DNA of 64,000 nt from Microbacterium sp. MYb62 (GTDB taxonomy: Bacteria; Actinomycetota; Actinomycetes; Actinomycetales; Microbacteriaceae). The position numbers and the translations under genes were made by a program. Positions 4,880 to 11,653 of this stretch are shown piece after piece. Within the stretch, counting starts at the first letter, position 1. Each line of letters opens with the position of its first letter. Under the pieces are notes generated by a model. The model did no database searches. It had not been told where the DNA came from and saw only the letters and a list, made by a program, of their open reading frames with translations. The DNA is taken from positions 1 to 64,000 of the forward strand of contig NZ_PCOY01000009.1 of the NCBI RefSeq assembly GCF_002979475.1, given 5' to 3'.

Positions 4880-5083
4880 TCAATAGTGAGGCGGCACGTC
4901 CTGGATCAGCTGCTCGTCGTTCGGCCCTTTGGCTCCCCGGGGGCGCACGGGCGGAGGCGACGCCTCGACGGGGCCGGACTCCGGCTCCGGATCGCTCCCG
5001 GGAACCGGCGTCAGACGCGCACGCCGAGAGCCGGGCACCCGCACCACCCGCTGGCGCGGCGTCGCGTCGGATCCGTCAGTCAT
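4880..5083 (-). CDS. Small hypothetical protein, Pro/Arg-rich
   Basis: 67 residues, hydrophilic, with a short basic N-terminus, a Pro-rich middle and the C-terminus NDEQLIQDVPPHY, an ending I associate with small actinobacterial proteins of unknown function. Its start overlaps the 3' end of the large upstream gene by 8 nt on the same strand, indicating translational coupling. No functional motif is visible. Confidence 0.65.
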   Translation of the reverse strand: MTDGSDATPRQRVVRVPGSRRARLTPVPGSDPEPESGPVEASPPPVRPRGAKGPNDEQLIQDVPPHY

Positions 5084-8000
5084 TCTGCGTGTCGACGATG
5101 TCTATCGGCTGGGTGTCGTTCTCGGCGCGGGGAGCCGAGTCGGAGATGCCCAGGACCGCGGCGATGCGCGTCGCCGCCGTGGCCGGATCGCTGTACAGAT
5201 CGAACGCATGCACACGTACGTAGTGCCAGCCCAGACGACGCAGCACATGGGGTCGCAGCCGCAGCGTCTCCCGCAGGGACTCGCCCCGGGACTCCGGGTC
5301 GGACTCGATGACGACGGCCTTGCCGCCGTACTGCGCGACGAGGGGAAGCAGACCGCGGTAGTCGACGTCGACGGATGCTCCGAGGCGCCGCAGCTCCCGT
5401 GCGAGAGCGAGGGTCAGCGGATCGGCGAGATCCTCCAGCCGGGCATCCCTGCTGCGAGCGGCGAGTCCGCCGAGGATCGACATCAGGGTCGCGGCTCCGT
5501 GCTCGAGGCGCCCGTCGTCGAAGGACGAGGGGCGGATCGACGAGACGATGACCATCGAACGCCGTGCCCTCGTCATCCCCACGGTGAGCAGACGCTCTCC
5601 GTCGGGCGTGGAGAGATCCCCGAAATCGCTCAGGACGCGACCGTGCTTGGTGAGGCCGAATCCGAGCGAGAAGATGACGCGGTCTCGGCTCTCCGCCACC
5701 GACTCTTCGAGGGTGAGGACGGCGAAGGGCTCCGCCGTGTCGCGACCGACGAAGTCGGCGACGTCGGACCGGCCCGCGAAGGCCGAGGTGACCGCGGCGC
5801 GCACCCTCTCGGCGTGGCGGGCACTGGCCGTCACGACCATGAGCGACTCGGCCGGCCGATGCACGGCATGCTCGACCACGAGGGTGACCACGCGGGCGAC
5901 CTCGGCATCGGGGCTCTCGACGGCGCCGGAGACGGGATCGGGAGTTCCCGTGCCGCCTTCCACGTAGTCGACCGTGAGGCTTCCGCGCCCGAGATACGAG
6001 CCAGCCCACGGCAGCGACACGATCTCGCCGCCGTAGAAGGCGTCGTTGATGAGCTCGGCCAGATCCTCGCCGCCCGCTCGGTAGCTGCGGGTCAGTGTCA
6101 TCACGGGCAGGAGCTCGGACAGACGCTCGAACGCGGAGACATCATCGAAGGGCACTTCCGCCTCCCACGACTCATCCGGGTCGACCGCGATGCGGAAAGG
6201 AGTCGGCCGCTGGGTGACGGGATCGCCGAACGCCACGATCTGGCGCGCTCGACGGATCGCCGGTGCCGCCTCCGCCAGGTTGATCGCCGCGGCATCGACC
6301 AGGAGCACCGTGTCGAACTCCACGGAATCCGGGATCTCCGGCACGAGGTACGGCGACGAGATCCAGACCGGTCCGAGCACGTCGACGAGTGCCGGTGCCG
6401 CACTGACGACCTGCGCGGTCGTCGTCGACGGCTGGGTCAGCGCGCGGCGCAGATGCTGCGACTGCACCGGCTCGTCCACGATGGCGATCCGCCACTGGTT
6501 GGCGAGCTGCCACGCCAGCAGCGGTCCTGCCATGGCGGCGTGGGCCTCGTCGACGAGTCGGAAGTCCCGCTCGAGGCGATCCACGACCGCGGTGTTCGCA
6601 CCGAGAAGCGCGCGGTTGTCCTGCAGGGCGCGTTCGAGGAGCGACTGCCACCAGGCGAACTCCAGCTCCTCCCCCACCTGCGACTCGGACACATGGCGGA
6701 CCGACAGCTCAGCGAGAAGAGGCTCCAGCCCGAGGAGAGCGAGACGGTCACGCAGCTGGGCGCGCTCCACGAGGTTCTCGAAGACATCCGACTTCGCGGC
6801 GAGTCCGGCGAGTGTGCGCACGAGACGCGCGACGGGGAGCGATGCCAGAGGCTCGCGGCGTCCCAGCGCCACATCGAGTTCGGCGAGCTCGGCTTCGACC
6901 CGCTGCCAGGAGACATACACGTCGGCGAGACCGAGCGGGATCTCCGGCGCGACACCGGCCTCGACACAGCGCTGCCACTGGGTGCGCTGCGCCTGGATCC
7001 GGAGCAGGGCCTCATGCATCTCGGTGACGTGGACACCCGGACGGACGTACTCCTTGGCGAGTCGACGCAGCCGCCGCCTGTTCGCCCCGGAGAGACCTGG
7101 GGCATCGCGGCGCGAACCGTGCGCCTGGATGAGTTCCCCCAGGGGACGCTCGAACACCGTCGGGCTGAAGCGATCGAGGGAGTCTCGGATCCCCTGCAGC
7201 AGTCGCAGGTATTCGCCGAGCTCATCGATGGTCGAGAACGGCCGCATGTGCGTCTGGGCGATCAGCTCGTAGCCGCGTTCGAGGAGGGCGGGGACGCTCT
7301 GGGAGTGCAATCGGCCGGCAAGCTCGTGCGCGGCCCTCGCCGCCTCGGTGCTGGCGAAGGTCACGCCGTACCAGGGGGAGTCATCCGGTCCGAAGCGGAA
7401 CTCCCCGAGACGCGCCGCCTGCGCGAGCGCCTCTGCGGCCTCCGTCCGGTCGGCGGCGAGGCGACGCAGCGCATCCGGTCCGAGGCGCGCCGTCGTGGAA
7501 GGCGGGACCTTGAGAGACGCGAGTCTGGTGAGCTGGCGGGTCGCGTCGAGAACCGAGGCGTCCATCCCCGCGACGGGGGCGCTGAGCGCCTGACGGTAGT
7601 CACGGAGCACGGTGCGCAGGCGCACGAGCGCATCGTCGACGTCGCTGACCTTGGGAGCCGTGGCCTTCTCGTTCCGACCGATCGCCCTGACCAGGTCGCG
7701 CCGCACACTCGCCGGGGAGATCGCCAGGCTGTCCAACCCGATTCCGGCAAGCCGGTGGCGCACCCCGTCGAGGGTCGACCGGCGCGCCGACACCACGAGC
7801 ACGCGCTTGCCACCGCGCACCAGCTCTCCGAGCGCATTGATCACGGTTTGCGTTCCGCCGGTTCCCGGGAGCGTCGCCACCGTGAGCGAGTGCCCCGCTG
7901 CGATGCGGGCGAGGACCGCCTCCTGCTCGGCATCCGCGTCGAGGAGGAGGTTGTCCGATGCGGGAGCGCGGTCGTCGGGGCCGATGTGGTGCGGCACGGC

Positions 8001-8795
8001 TCGAGGCGCGGTCACCCGCTCGCGGTCCCCCACATGGCCGGCGAGGGCATTCAGCATCGGATGGTCGAGGCTGCCCGCATCGCGGGACATGACGCCGGAG
8101 ACATCCGCGAACGTCGAGACCACCAGTCGGGGTTCGACGGAGAACGTGTCGATCGACCGCGTCATGGCACGGAGGCTGTCGATCACGGGCTGCGGCTTGA
8201 AGACGCCGCCGTCATAGGCGAGGGCGGCGAGCGCCGCGGCATCGATGGAGAGCCCGAAGTGATCGCGCGCGATGCGGGCGAGCTCCGGGTTCACCTCGAA
8301 CGTTCCCTGGAGCTTGAGCTCGAAATCCGAGTGGTGGCGCCGGATCGCCAGCGGGCGCAGCAGTACCGGTGCGGCGAACTCCGCTCCCCCGATGCGCCAC
8401 CGGGCGACGCCGACGGCGAGATGCACCGCCTCGATCCCGCGCACGGTGCGCAACTCGGTGTTCTTGGCGGTGATGCGCTCCGCGGCCAGTCGCGCGGTGC
8501 GCAGACCCACCTCGTCGCGGAAGAGGTTCGAGAGGAGCGTCGACTTGCCGGTGATGAACTGCGGCAGGCTGCCGGGATGCGCCTTCGAGATGTCGATGCC
8601 CGACTCCTGGCCGTCCCGGAAGCTGACCAGGGGCGACGGGCCTCCGAGATCGGCGGCCTCGGCCCTCAGCCGACTGCGTTCGGCTTCGGCAGCGTGCGCG
8701 ATCTGGATGCCGGTGTCGGTGACGCGCAGATCGCCGATCGACACAGCAGTCTCCACCGCTGTGTCCTCCGCAGACTTGCTTTCACGTCGCCACAC
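5076..8795 (-). CDS. SF1 helicase-like protein with Vsr/MTES_1575-type C-terminus, altered Walker motifs
   Basis: 1239 residues. The layout matches DNA2/NAM7-type superfamily 1 proteins: an N-terminal region with a DUF4011-like feel, an ATPase core from about residue 290, and a C-terminal Vsr-like endonuclease segment (about 1135-1215: RRLGASVDVDYRG, KAVVIESDPES, LRRLGWHYVRVHAFDLYSDP) resembling the REase_MTES_1575 domain. The Walker A-like loop reads LPGTGGTQT, with Gly314 where the catalytic Lys should be. The Walker B-like motif reads VLLVDAAAI, without the Glu of DEA(S/A). Motif VI (GMTRARRSM) and the FGDP motif are kept. ATP hydrolysis is therefore doubtful; a structural or DNA-binding role in repair or defence is inference. 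GTG start lies 6 nt after TAGGGT (8802-8807). Confidence 0.8.
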   Translation of the reverse strand: MWRRESKSAEDTAVETAVSIGDLRVTDTGIQIAHAAEAERSRLRAEAADLGGPSPLVSFRDGQESGIDISKAHPGSLPQFITGKSTLLSNLFRDEVGLRTARLAAERITAKNTELRTVRGIEAVHLAVGVARWRIGGAEFAAPVLLRPLAIRRHHSDFELKLQGTFEVNPELARIARDHFGLSIDAAALAALAYDGGVFKPQPVIDSLRAMTRSIDTFSVEPRLVVSTFADVSGVMSRDAGSLDHPMLNALAGHVGDRERVTAPRAVPHHIGPDDRAPASDNLLLDADAEQEAVLARIAAGHSLTVATLPGTGGTQTVINALGELVRGGKRVLVVSARRSTLDGVRHRLAGIGLDSLAISPASVRRDLVRAIGRNEKATAPKVSDVDDALVRLRTVLRDYRQALSAPVAGMDASVLDATRQLTRLASLKVPPSTTARLGPDALRRLAADRTEAAEALAQAARLGEFRFGPDDSPWYGVTFASTEAARAAHELAGRLHSQSVPALLERGYELIAQTHMRPFSTIDELGEYLRLLQGIRDSLDRFSPTVFERPLGELIQAHGSRRDAPGLSGANRRRLRRLAKEYVRPGVHVTEMHEALLRIQAQRTQWQRCVEAGVAPEIPLGLADVYVSWQRVEAELAELDVALGRREPLASLPVARLVRTLAGLAAKSDVFENLVERAQLRDRLALLGLEPLLAELSVRHVSESQVGEELEFAWWQSLLERALQDNRALLGANTAVVDRLERDFRLVDEAHAAMAGPLLAWQLANQWRIAIVDEPVQSQHLRRALTQPSTTTAQVVSAAPALVDVLGPVWISSPYLVPEIPDSVEFDTVLLVDAAAINLAEAAPAIRRARQIVAFGDPVTQRPTPFRIAVDPDESWEAEVPFDDVSAFERLSELLPVMTLTRSYRAGGEDLAELINDAFYGGEIVSLPWAGSYLGRGSLTVDYVEGGTGTPDPVSGAVESPDAEVARVVTLVVEHAVHRPAESLMVVTASARHAERVRAAVTSAFAGRSDVADFVGRDTAEPFAVLTLEESVAESRDRVIFSLGFGLTKHGRVLSDFGDLSTPDGERLLTVGMTRARRSMVIVSSIRPSSFDDGRLEHGAATLMSILGGLAARSRDARLEDLADPLTLALARELRRLGASVDVDYRGLLPLVAQYGGKAVVIESDPESRGESLRETLRLRPHVLRRLGWHYVRVHAFDLYSDPATAATRIAAVLGISDSAPRAENDTQPIDIVDTQND

Positions 8796-8973
8796 AATGA
8801 CACCCTAGGCGCGCGACCCCCGGAGATGACGTATCCCAGGCGGGTTTCCGCCGAATTCCCGCCGTTTCACGGCCTTCCGCACTCCTCCTCCCCTGTGCTC
8901 GCGCTGCTCGCGTTCTCCACTCTCCTCGGCAGGCACGCGCCGCGTGGTCGGTCACCCCGGTCAGGATAGGGGC

Positions 8974-9486
8974 ATGACCTTCCGCTACGACTTCGCTCCG
9001 ACCCCGTTCGGCGATGCCCTCGCGGTGTTCTCCGACGAGGGCATCGTGCGATTCGACCTCTCCGAGTCCGAAGATCCTCACGTGCCCTGGCTTCTCGAAG
9101 GAATCTCTCGACAGCTTCGGGCCGTACCCGAACCCGACCCGGGGGCCGCAGACGAGCTGGCACATCTCCTCGCCGAGTACTTCGATGGCGAGCCGGTGCG
9201 TTTCGAGGAACATCTCCGACTCGACTGGCGACTCGTCGACGGATTCGCCTTGAACGCCCTGCAGACGATCTGCACGATCGAGTGGGGAGAGACGATGAGC
9301 TACGGGGAGGTCGCGGTCCTCGCCGGGCACCCCGGTGCCGCACGCGCCGTCGGCACAGCGTGCCGGATCACGCCGTTCTCGATCATCGTGCCGGTCCATC
9401 GCGTCGTGCGATCCGACGGCAGCGCGGGGCACTACGGCGCGCACCCCGAGCGCAAGCGGTTCCTCCTCGACCTCGAGGCGGGCTGA
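8974..9486 (+). CDS. Ogt/MGMT-family protein lacking the acceptor cysteine
   Basis: 170 residues, aligning over the full family length with O6-methylguanine-DNA methyltransferases: N-terminal domain (FRYDFAPTPFGDALAVFSDEG) and the DNA-binding C-terminal domain with GETMSYGEVAVLAGHPGAARAVGTA. The active-site motif PCHRV is PVHRV here: codon 141 is GTC (9394-9396), Val instead of the methyl-accepting Cys. It cannot be a classical transferase. Alkyltransferase-like (ATL) proteins also lack the Cys (usually Trp) and flag lesions for nucleotide excision repair, so an ATL-like role is possible. ATG at 8974 (MTFRYD) is chosen over an upstream in-frame start at 8944. Confidence 0.85.
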   Translation: MTFRYDFAPTPFGDALAVFSDEGIVRFDLSESEDPHVPWLLEGISRQLRAVPEPDPGAADELAHLLAEYFDGEPVRFEEHLRLDWRLVDGFALNALQTICTIEWGETMSYGEVAVLAGHPGAARAVGTACRITPFSIIVPVHRVVRSDGSAGHYGAHPERKRFLLDLEAG

Positions 9487-9562: not shown

Positions 9563-11200
9563 TCAGTGCTCGACGGCCTTCTCGGCACCGAAGCCCGTGA
9601 GCGAGCGCACCTCCATCTCCGCAGCGAGCTGTGGGGACTCCTTCCGAGTGCTGGTGATCGTGCCGAGCCATCCGAGCAGGAAGCCGAGCGGGATCGAGAT
9701 GATGCCGGGGTTGTTGAGCGGCCATATCGCGATGTCGATCCCGGGGATCATCGACGTCGGCGTCCCCGAGAAGACCGGCGAGAGGATGATCAGCAGGATC
9801 GCCGAGCCCAGTCCGCCGTACATGCTCCACACCGCACCACGGGTCGTGAACCGTCGCCAGAACAGCGAATACAGGATGGTGGGGAGGTTCGCCGAGGCGG
9901 CGACCGCGAACGCCAAGGCGACCAGGAAGGCGATGTTCTGCCCCTGCGCTCCGATGCCGCCGAGGATCGCCAGGATGCCGATCACGATGACGGTGCGACG
10001 AGCGACGCGCACTTCCCCGTTCGGGTCGGCTTCGACCGGCTTGCCCTCGACGTCCTTGCGCCCCTTCTGAATCACGTTCGCATAGATGTCATGCGCGAAG
10101 GATGCCGCCGCGGTGATCGTGAGGCCGGCGACCACGGCGAGGATGGTCGCGAAGGCCACCGCCGAGATGAAGCCGAGCAGCACCGGTCCGCCGAGGCGGA
10201 GCGCCAGCAGCGGCGCCGCGGAGTTGACGCCGCCCGGAGCGGCCGCGATGACGTCGGCCCCGACGAGCGCTCCGGCGCCGTAGCCGAGCACCAGCGTGAG
10301 CAGATAGAAGCCGCCGATGAGCCAGATCGCCCAGACGACCGAGCGGCGTGCCTCTTTCGCGGTCGGCACCGTGTAGAAGCGCATGAGCACGTGGGGCAGC
10401 CCCGCGGTGCCCAGCACGAGGGCCATCCCCAGGGACAGGAAGTCCCAGGGGTTCGCCCCGTACTGCAGCCCCGGAGCCAGGATCGCATCCCCCTTGTCGG
10501 AGTTGGCGACGGCCGCCTCGAGAAGCGTGTTGAGACTGAACCCGTTGATCGCGAGCACCCATACCGTCATCCCCAGGGCTCCGCCGATGAGAAGGAACGC
10601 CTTGACGATCTGCACCCAGGTCGTCCCCTTCATCCCTCCGATCAGCACGTACACGATCATGAGCACCCCGACGACGGCGATGACGATCGACTGACCGACC
10701 CGGCCGTCGATGCCGAGCAGCAGCGACACCAGCCCGCCGGCCCCCGCCATCTGCGCCAGCAGATAGAAGAAGCACACCGCCAACGTGGTGATCGCAGCGG
10801 CCATCCGCACCGGACGCTGATTGAGGCGGAACGACAGCACATCCGCCATCGTGAACTTGCCGGTGTTGCGCATCAGCTCCGCGACCAGGAGCAGAGCGAC
10901 CAGCCACGCGACCAGGAATCCGATCGAGTAGAGGAAGCCGTCATACCCGTTGATCGCGATCGCGCCGCAGATGCCGAGAAAAGAGGCGGCGGAGAGGTAG
11001 TCGCCGGCGATCGCGAATCCGTTCTGCGGACCTGTGAAGGATCGTCCGGCCGCGTAGTAGTCGGCCGCGGTCTTGTTGTTGCGGCTGGCCCTGATCACGA
11101 TGAAGAGCGTCACCGCGACGAACGCCAGGAAGATCGAGATGTTGAAGACGGGGTTTATCTCGAGCGCGGCCTGATCCGCAGCCAGGCGAATTCCGTTCAT
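9563..11200 (-). CDS. actP: Sodium/solute symporter, acetate/monocarboxylate type
   Basis: 545 residues and about 13 membrane helices of the SSS family. Family segments include NGFAIAGDYLSAASFLGICG near the N-terminus (ActP/MctC signature region), GGMKGTTWVQIVKAFLL and GVNSAAPLLALRLGG. It imports acetate, pyruvate or propionate with a cation; the exact substrate cannot be fixed. Its ATG overlaps the stop of the DUF485 gene (ATGA at 11197-11200), the standard actP partner arrangement. The divergent LuxR-type gene is a likely regulator. The symbol is given by family; mctC would be the corynebacterial name. Confidence 0.88.
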   Translation of the reverse strand: MNGIRLAADQAALEINPVFNISIFLAFVAVTLFIVIRASRNNKTAADYYAAGRSFTGPQNGFAIAGDYLSAASFLGICGAIAINGYDGFLYSIGFLVAWLVALLLVAELMRNTGKFTMADVLSFRLNQRPVRMAAAITTLAVCFFYLLAQMAGAGGLVSLLLGIDGRVGQSIVIAVVGVLMIVYVLIGGMKGTTWVQIVKAFLLIGGALGMTVWVLAINGFSLNTLLEAAVANSDKGDAILAPGLQYGANPWDFLSLGMALVLGTAGLPHVLMRFYTVPTAKEARRSVVWAIWLIGGFYLLTLVLGYGAGALVGADVIAAAPGGVNSAAPLLALRLGGPVLLGFISAVAFATILAVVAGLTITAAASFAHDIYANVIQKGRKDVEGKPVEADPNGEVRVARRTVIVIGILAILGGIGAQGQNIAFLVALAFAVAASANLPTILYSLFWRRFTTRGAVWSMYGGLGSAILLIILSPVFSGTPTSMIPGIDIAIWPLNNPGIISIPLGFLLGWLGTITSTRKESPQLAAEMEVRSLTGFGAEKAVEH

Positions 11201-11544
11201 GCCGCGCCCTGCGCCTTCTCGAGCTCTTCGCGGATCTCGGTCGCGAGCGGATCCAGTTTTCTATTGGCGAAAGAGACGTACGCCATCGTGATCCCGAATG
11301 TCGTCACGAACTGTCCGAGACCGAGGAGAAGTCCGATGGTGATGTCGCCCCACACTCGCTGGCCCATGAATTCGGGGGCGAAAGCCGCCAGAAGCACATA
11401 GACGAAATACCAGACGAGGAAGAACGCGGCGAGCGGGAAGATGAACGATCGCTGGGTGCGTTTCAAAGTCAGGAATCTCGGCGACTGCTCGACGGCGATG
11501 TAGTCGATCGCGCCGTGGGAATCTGCGTGCGTCTGGTCGCTCAT
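11197..11544 (-). CDS. DUF485 membrane protein (symporter partner)
   Basis: 115 residues, two membrane helices (about residues 38-60 and 73-98). DUF485 proteins are encoded immediately upstream of SSS-type acetate symporters and are thought to be accessory subunits. ATG at 11544 (MSDQTH) is chosen because AGGAGG lies 6-7 nt upstream; the GTG at 11562 would place the ribosome-binding site inside the gene. Confidence 0.9.
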   Translation of the reverse strand: MSDQTHADSHGAIDYIAVEQSPRFLTLKRTQRSFIFPLAAFFLVWYFVYVLLAAFAPEFMGQRVWGDITIGLLLGLGQFVTTFGITMAYVSFANRKLDPLATEIREELEKAQGAA

Positions 11545-11653
11545 GGGGCCTCCTTGCCACATGTCCGGTTACCCGCACGACTCGATCGTGCGAATGGTAG
11601 GGTCGACGCTACGAAACGGGGAACTGCATCGTCACCCCCGGAAGTAGGTAGTC

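Follow-up and report, generated by a model that had tools for sequence, protein, structure and literature searches.

What can a DNA alkyltransferase still do for the cell that keeps it, once the cysteine that accepts the alkyl group has been lost? The question is raised by a gene of Microbacterium sp. MYb62 that lies in the window, by which we mean the whole stretch of 64,000 nucleotides analyzed here, namely the opening 64 kb of contig 51 in the source genome; named relatives with up to 95% identity likewise place the organism in Microbacterium. The gene encodes an Ogt homologue in which the PCHRV motif reads PVHRV (residues 140-144; the translation ends in ...TACRITPFSIIVPVHRVVRSDGSAGHYGAHPERKRFLLDLEAG). 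The protein matches the NCBIfam model TIGR00589 ogt with 80.1 bits (cut-off 46.4), and a Pfam scan of its 170 amino acids recovered the two Ogt domains only, with no additional regulatory domain; the N-terminal match, to Methyltransf_1N (PF02870), is below the Pfam cut-off of 21 bits (table 1). A preliminary description had noticed the valine, had taken the rest of the fold to be complete and had proposed that such Val variants might form a distinct lesion-sensing class.

Table 1. Positions in the window of the Cys-less Ogt gene, its domains and diagnostic residues, and its neighbor
Feature	Position	Strand	Remarks
Helicase-like protein gene, head-to-head with Ogt	5076-8795	-	1239 aa; partner by position only
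Divergent intergenic region common to Ogt and helicase-like gene	8796-8973	.	Alignment of 58 upstream regions reveals conserved blocks
Cys-less two-domain Ogt/AGT homologue	8974-9486	+	170 aa; one open frame
N-terminal ribonuclease-like domain, residues 4-82	8983-9219	+	PF02870, 17.5 bits; model alignment with M. tuberculosis OGT (MtOGT), residues 3-170
C-terminal DNA-binding/active-site domain, residues 92-169	9247-9480	+	PF01035 DNA_binding_1, E 3e-25
Tyr110, equivalent of the base-flipping Tyr	9301-9303	+	Y in 222/225 Cys-less rows
Arg124, equivalent of the arginine finger	9343-9345	+	R in 225/225 Cys-less rows
Thr133, where the asparagine hinge is expected	9370-9372	+	T 210, S 15 in 225 Cys-less rows
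Ser136, at the place of the pocket proline	9379-9381	+	S 217, T 7, A 1 in 225 Cys-less rows
Val141 (codon GTC), at the place of the acceptor Cys	9394-9396	+	Read from the window DNA
His142-Arg143, retained	9397-9402	+	225/225 Cys-less rows, as the P.HR search presupposes
Glu168, equivalent of the triad Glu	9475-9477	+	Nearly invariant in alignment A1 (16 rows), invariant in A2 (34 rows)

The valine is real. At the acceptor position, the 153 distinct Microbacterium genomes that were read, chosen by score and by hand and not randomly from a set of 366, have valine (127) or alanine (26) and never cysteine; valine is also found throughout L034-L092, a set of 59 named loci that partly come from these genomes. 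A sequencing error that turned TGC into GTC can thus be ruled out, since valine or alanine is found in 153/153 genomes and the valine itself is variously encoded (GTG 169, GTC 18, GTA 5 and GTT 4 over 224 rows, repeats included, in which alanine is written GCG 17, GCC 6, GCT 3 and GCA 2 times); a single reading error is excluded in any case because the conversion takes two changes. All these counts rest on the motif P.HR, so that proteins with an altered Pro, His or Arg escape them, and nine rows lacking it (L060, L089, L113, L114, L115, L135, L232, L234 and L237) are pieces or badly bounded frames; with these nine dropped, each of the 153 genomes still yields Val or Ala from its mapped loci. 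The 225 Cys-less rows referred to throughout include repeats of the same genome. Across the whole genus set, a protein match at E 0.001 or better occurs in 366/366 genomes and one at E 4e-32 or better in 359; the seven others, all 44-87% complete, gave weak matches only (E 2e-9 or weaker), and hence the presence of the Cys-less gene in the genus is not quite universal.

A gene that has lost its catalytic residue might simply be decaying, and a slowly eroding pseudoenzyme is one explanation of the locus; its counterpart is a transferase that remains active through some other residue, for example Cys130, which is found in 225/225 Cys-less rows. Frameshifts do split the gene in three genomes, G225 (L113), G250 (L114) and G071 (L115), although that of G225 may consist of read errors, as the Walker A region of the neighboring gene is odd there too. 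The values of dN/dS, however, are 0.05-0.13 in 11 pairs compared with the window gene, with similar figures for the two domains; by this measure the Cys-less Ogt is under strong purifying selection, a pseudogene is rejected, and slow decay is opposed also by the presence of the gene in all genomes read. As for Cys130, it aligns to the DNA-recognition region, away from the acceptor site, and it does not vary in the 40 nearest Cys-type rows either, from which we conclude that it was inherited. Both versions of this explanation thus appear very improbable.

The acceptor is not the only active-site residue to have changed. The expectation that the rest of the fold is complete was borne out for the fold itself, which is modeled as a two-domain AGT, but it failed for the active site, where the hinge (Thr133) and the pocket (Ser136) are altered as well. 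To place these changes, the profile of alignment A1, built from 16 Cys-less proteins, was searched against 299 genomes of the family and 347 of the order, some of them Microbacterium, and the best-scoring loci outside the genus were fetched (24 from the family and 14 from the order); all of these are PCHR. Judged by motif and by profile score, it is the Cys-type Ogt of such other genera that comes nearest to the Cys-less protein. The group so defined, the nearest Cys group (40 rows, two of them from Microbacterium; 144-184 bits), whose motif is typically GTACATNPLPIVVPCHRV, has PCHR, the Asn hinge and the pocket proline in 40/40 rows, all of which the Cys-less protein lacks, and the helicase-like gene stands alongside in 0/38 of its loci over 3 kb. 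The hinge residue separates the two types completely: Asn in 62/62 Cys rows and Thr or Ser in every Cys-less row. The change of the pocket proline, by contrast, means little when taken alone, as serine occupies this place in 11/22 of the other Cys rows.

Other residues of the site have been kept. We take Tyr110, Arg124 and Glu168 to be the counterparts of Y114, R128 and E172 of human AGT, just as Thr133 and Ser136 presumably stand at the places of its N137 and P140. His142-Arg143, whose constancy in the 225 rows follows from the search motif, is also invariant in the alignments A1 (16 rows) and A2 (34 rows). In a review, the tyrosine is given a base-flipping role (PMC10779285).

The loss of the acceptor appears to have occurred only once. 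In a tree of 95 rows, from which the three trait positions had been masked, the 33 Cys-less rows form one clade (100/98), requiring one change, in which rows with Val and rows with Ala are intermingled. Among the divergent members of the clade are L133 (G334), L216 (G044) and L217 (G045), which have Thr in place of Ser at the pocket position. The backbone of the tree is weak, with supports of 57/38 and lower around the sister branch of the Cys-less clade; the clade probably descends from the nearest Cys group, to which an ACxxxP stretch common to both points as the likely sister. Two Microbacterium genomes, G277 (L238) and G176 (L239), carry, besides the Cys-less gene, a PCHR Ogt that belongs to this group, and a third such copy, in G313 (C4:63250-63732), is likely, being known by its score alone (145.7 bits). 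In the tree the G277 copy pairs with one from another genus as its sister (99/82), a placement that suggests transfer; L239 was left unplaced.

The structural comparison points to the full-length enzymes. An AlphaFold2 model computed from 34 rows (mean pLDDT 89.2, pTM 0.84) has the two-domain AGT fold, and the best PDB chain among those aligned was 4wx9_A, the DNA-bound OGT of M. tuberculosis (Z 21.0, rmsd 1.7 over 150 residues). The M. tuberculosis enzyme (4bhb, 4wx9) shares this fold at 37% identity (4wx9_A). Of the features of an active alkyltransferase, the window protein thus has the two-domain fold and lacks the PCHR acceptor cysteine and the asparagine hinge. Put otherwise, the tyrosine, the arginine finger, the histidine and the glutamate are common to Ogt/AGT and the window protein, whereas the acceptor Cys, Asn hinge and pocket Pro have become Val/Ala, Thr/Ser and Ser.

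The obvious precedents for a Cys-less member of this family are the alkyltransferase-like proteins, or ATLs. In the same review, ATLs are described as having neither the acceptor Cys nor the Asn hinge while retaining the HTH, the Arg finger and the Tyr; as lacking the N-terminal domain, with an acceptor position occupied mostly by Trp, in agreement with the preliminary description; and as binding O6-alkylguanine tightly and recruiting nucleotide excision repair (NER) (PMC10779285). With the ATLs of S. pombe (Atl1), E. coli and V. parahaemolyticus (2kif), the window protein has in common the loss of the acceptor Cys and of the Asn hinge and the preservation of the base-flipping residues (Tyr in 222/225 rows, Arg finger in 225/225). 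It differs from them in possessing the N-terminal domain, which they lack, and in having Val or Ala, not Trp, at the acceptor position. The sequence matches to ATLs are also weaker (2kif E 3.5e-7 and 3gva E 5.9e-7, versus E 2.8e-21 for MtOGT), and the ATL structures align with the model over about residues 88-170 only, with Z scores of 7 to 8 (2kif 8.0, 3gx4 7.8). A known ATL is therefore rejected on domain content and acceptor residue, two features of the family in which the protein departs from it, and the retained N-terminal domain makes an origin from a full-length Ogt, rather than from a known ATL, look likely. T. thermophilus TTHA1564, which is annotated as an ATL, probably has Ala at the acceptor site and a single domain; a paper that names it gives Trp for ATLs at large. 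The proposal of a separate Val class consequently holds in so far as the protein is distinct from the Trp-type ATLs, and was incomplete in that alanine also belongs to the class (26 genomes), that the acceptor change is coupled with the loss of the Asn hinge and that the N-terminal domain has been retained. In the literature searched, which excludes most subscription journals, AGT homologues of the Val type were not reported, nor was there anything on Microbacterium together with O6-methylguanine methyltransferase, and the articles containing "PVHR", among the matches listed, were unrelated by title.

Does the genome have other means of reversing alkylation? In its 4.15 Mb there are three PF01035 matches at E 0.001 or better: the Val-type gene and two others, L002, which adjoins the gene of an AraC-AlkA protein, and L003, which sits elsewhere. 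Both read PCHRV and have DNA-binding domains confirmed by Pfam, so that the separate Cys-containing Ogt that the preliminary description had asked about is present twice; no Trp-type ATL is among the three. At least two matches were reported in 80/80 chosen Microbacterium genomes, among the matches listed, a figure that may count pieces of one split gene (e.g., in G066, G360 and G365). The seven lower-scoring homologues that were read (L241-L247, from 6 of these 80 genomes) are all PCHR.

Sequence comparison thus shows a single Cys-less clade, present in all the genomes read and held by strong purifying selection, that has kept the residues of DNA binding and base flipping and lost the acceptor. 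The explanation that we favor, with a probability of about 0.55, is that a full-length Ogt has been turned into a noncatalytic lesion binder, ATL-like in its action; the Cys-less protein would probably bind damage without repairing it. The acceptor Cys and the Asn hinge would have been lost together, once, within Microbacterium or at its base. A lesion such as O6-alkylguanine, or one related to it, would be flipped into the pocket of the protein; the alkyl group would not be accepted and the protein would remain on the lesion, marking or shielding it on behalf of another system, for which nucleotide excision repair is the simplest candidate. Meanwhile the two PCHR paralogs would perform direct reversal, and the product of the head-to-head helicase-like gene could be a partner or a mere neighbor. 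For the handing over of lesions to nucleotide excision repair, the Trp-type ATLs are the model (PMC10779285). There is also an experimental parallel in the SsOGT C119A mutant, a protein engineered against alkylation and dissociation and crystallized on O6-methylguanine DNA (PMC4605297). Against a lesion binder of this sort it can be said that the base-flipping residues could have been retained for some other binding of DNA, that the protein has the N-terminal domain which ATLs lack, and that the Val or Ala of the Cys-less protein is not bulky as is the Trp of most ATLs.

Another explanation is a regulator of transcription or chromatin, in which the Ogt fold would be retained to bind DNA without regard to lesions, perhaps as a permanent mimic of an alkylated, and hence switched, Ada-type regulator. 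Changes at the acceptor can lock such a switch: in Caulobacter Cada2, C267A is noninducing and C267G behaves as if constitutively on (PMC10957082). SsOGT with Leu at the acceptor was made to mimic a bulkier adduct (PMC4605297). The divergent intergenic region (table 1) has conserved blocks, at about 8800-8816, 8830-8855 and 8960-8973, that fit with regulation and are possibly promoter or translation signals. Yet the protein comprises two Ogt domains and no further regulatory domain, it has no known binding site, and a regulator would not need such constancy of the lesion-flipping residues. We regard this role as unlikely.

The lesion binder that we prefer might act with its neighbor. The helicase-like protein matches MTES_1575 and AAA_12 with scores under their cut-offs, resembles the anti-phage proteins ProA (275.7 bits; cut-off 1500) and Hhe (144.1 bits; cut-off 2000), both below their cut-offs, and is matched by PADLOC PDC-S37 with 288.9 bits; phmmer found no solved structure for it up to E 0.1. 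A canonical Walker A motif has a lysine, and a canonical Walker B a glutamate. Here the Walker A is degenerate (GTGGTQT, Lys replaced by Gly), and in the Walker B, VDAAA, the Glu is replaced; across the helicase-like loci Walker B usually reads DAA or DAG, while a few loci have DS or DG. No Walker A lysine was seen in the 113 such loci read (59 named, 34 of L093-L127 and 20 of L270-L289; the G225 genome, L089 and L113, is garbled there). The ATPase motifs therefore look dead, and a helicase that is ATPase-dead yet conserved is an oddity by itself. The search for a homologue succeeded in 65/65 Microbacteriaceae genomes, of which 59 are not Microbacterium, so that the change in the helicase-like gene extends beyond the genus.

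The arrangement of the two genes suggests that the Ogt could be an accessory of the helicase-like protein, providing DNA binding to a complex that serves in DNA repair or in defense against phages. They stand head-to-head in 135/153 Microbacterium genomes, and 17 of the 18 others had fewer than 545 upstream bases for inspection; the resemblance of the neighbor to anti-phage proteins speaks for the same idea. In opposition, the helicase-like gene is present in 59/59 non-Microbacterium genomes, and within about 1.4 kb upstream no Ogt was found in 14 non-Microbacterium loci read (13 genera), as against 6/6 Microbacterium loci with one; without an adjoining Ogt at these loci, the helicase-like gene evidently does not need it. 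Conversely, the Cys-less gene of G334 (L133) has no helicase-like gene over 1500 upstream bases, and PADLOC gives no match for the Ogt itself. The pairing seems peculiar to Microbacterium, and an accessory role seems to us quite unlikely. On the other side of the Ogt, a solute symporter (PF00474) and DUF485 pair (9563-11562, minus strand) lies downstream, as in many syntenic loci, not all of them; there was no match to the pair in, for example, L034, L036 and L039. A bolder extension of the lesion-binding idea, decidedly improbable though it is, would have a genus-wide sensor hand its lesions to the divergent, ATPase-dead helicase-like protein, the ATL principle being reinvented with the N-terminal domain kept and with Val or Ala for Trp. 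If true, this would be a damage-sensing pair composed of two dead enzymes.

The Cys-less relatives of AGT that the review describes are short and mostly of the Trp type (PMC10779285). A strongly conserved full-length Ogt, lacking the cysteine and with the Asn hinge also lost, looks like an independent arrival at the ATL design. If the protein cannot transfer alkyl groups, the NCBIfam name methylated-DNA--cysteine S-methyltransferase is wrong for the gene. The helicase-like gene alongside, with its dead-looking ATPase motifs, is a concrete candidate partner, and the Cys-less Ogt would offer a natural test of which residues make a sensor from a repair enzyme.
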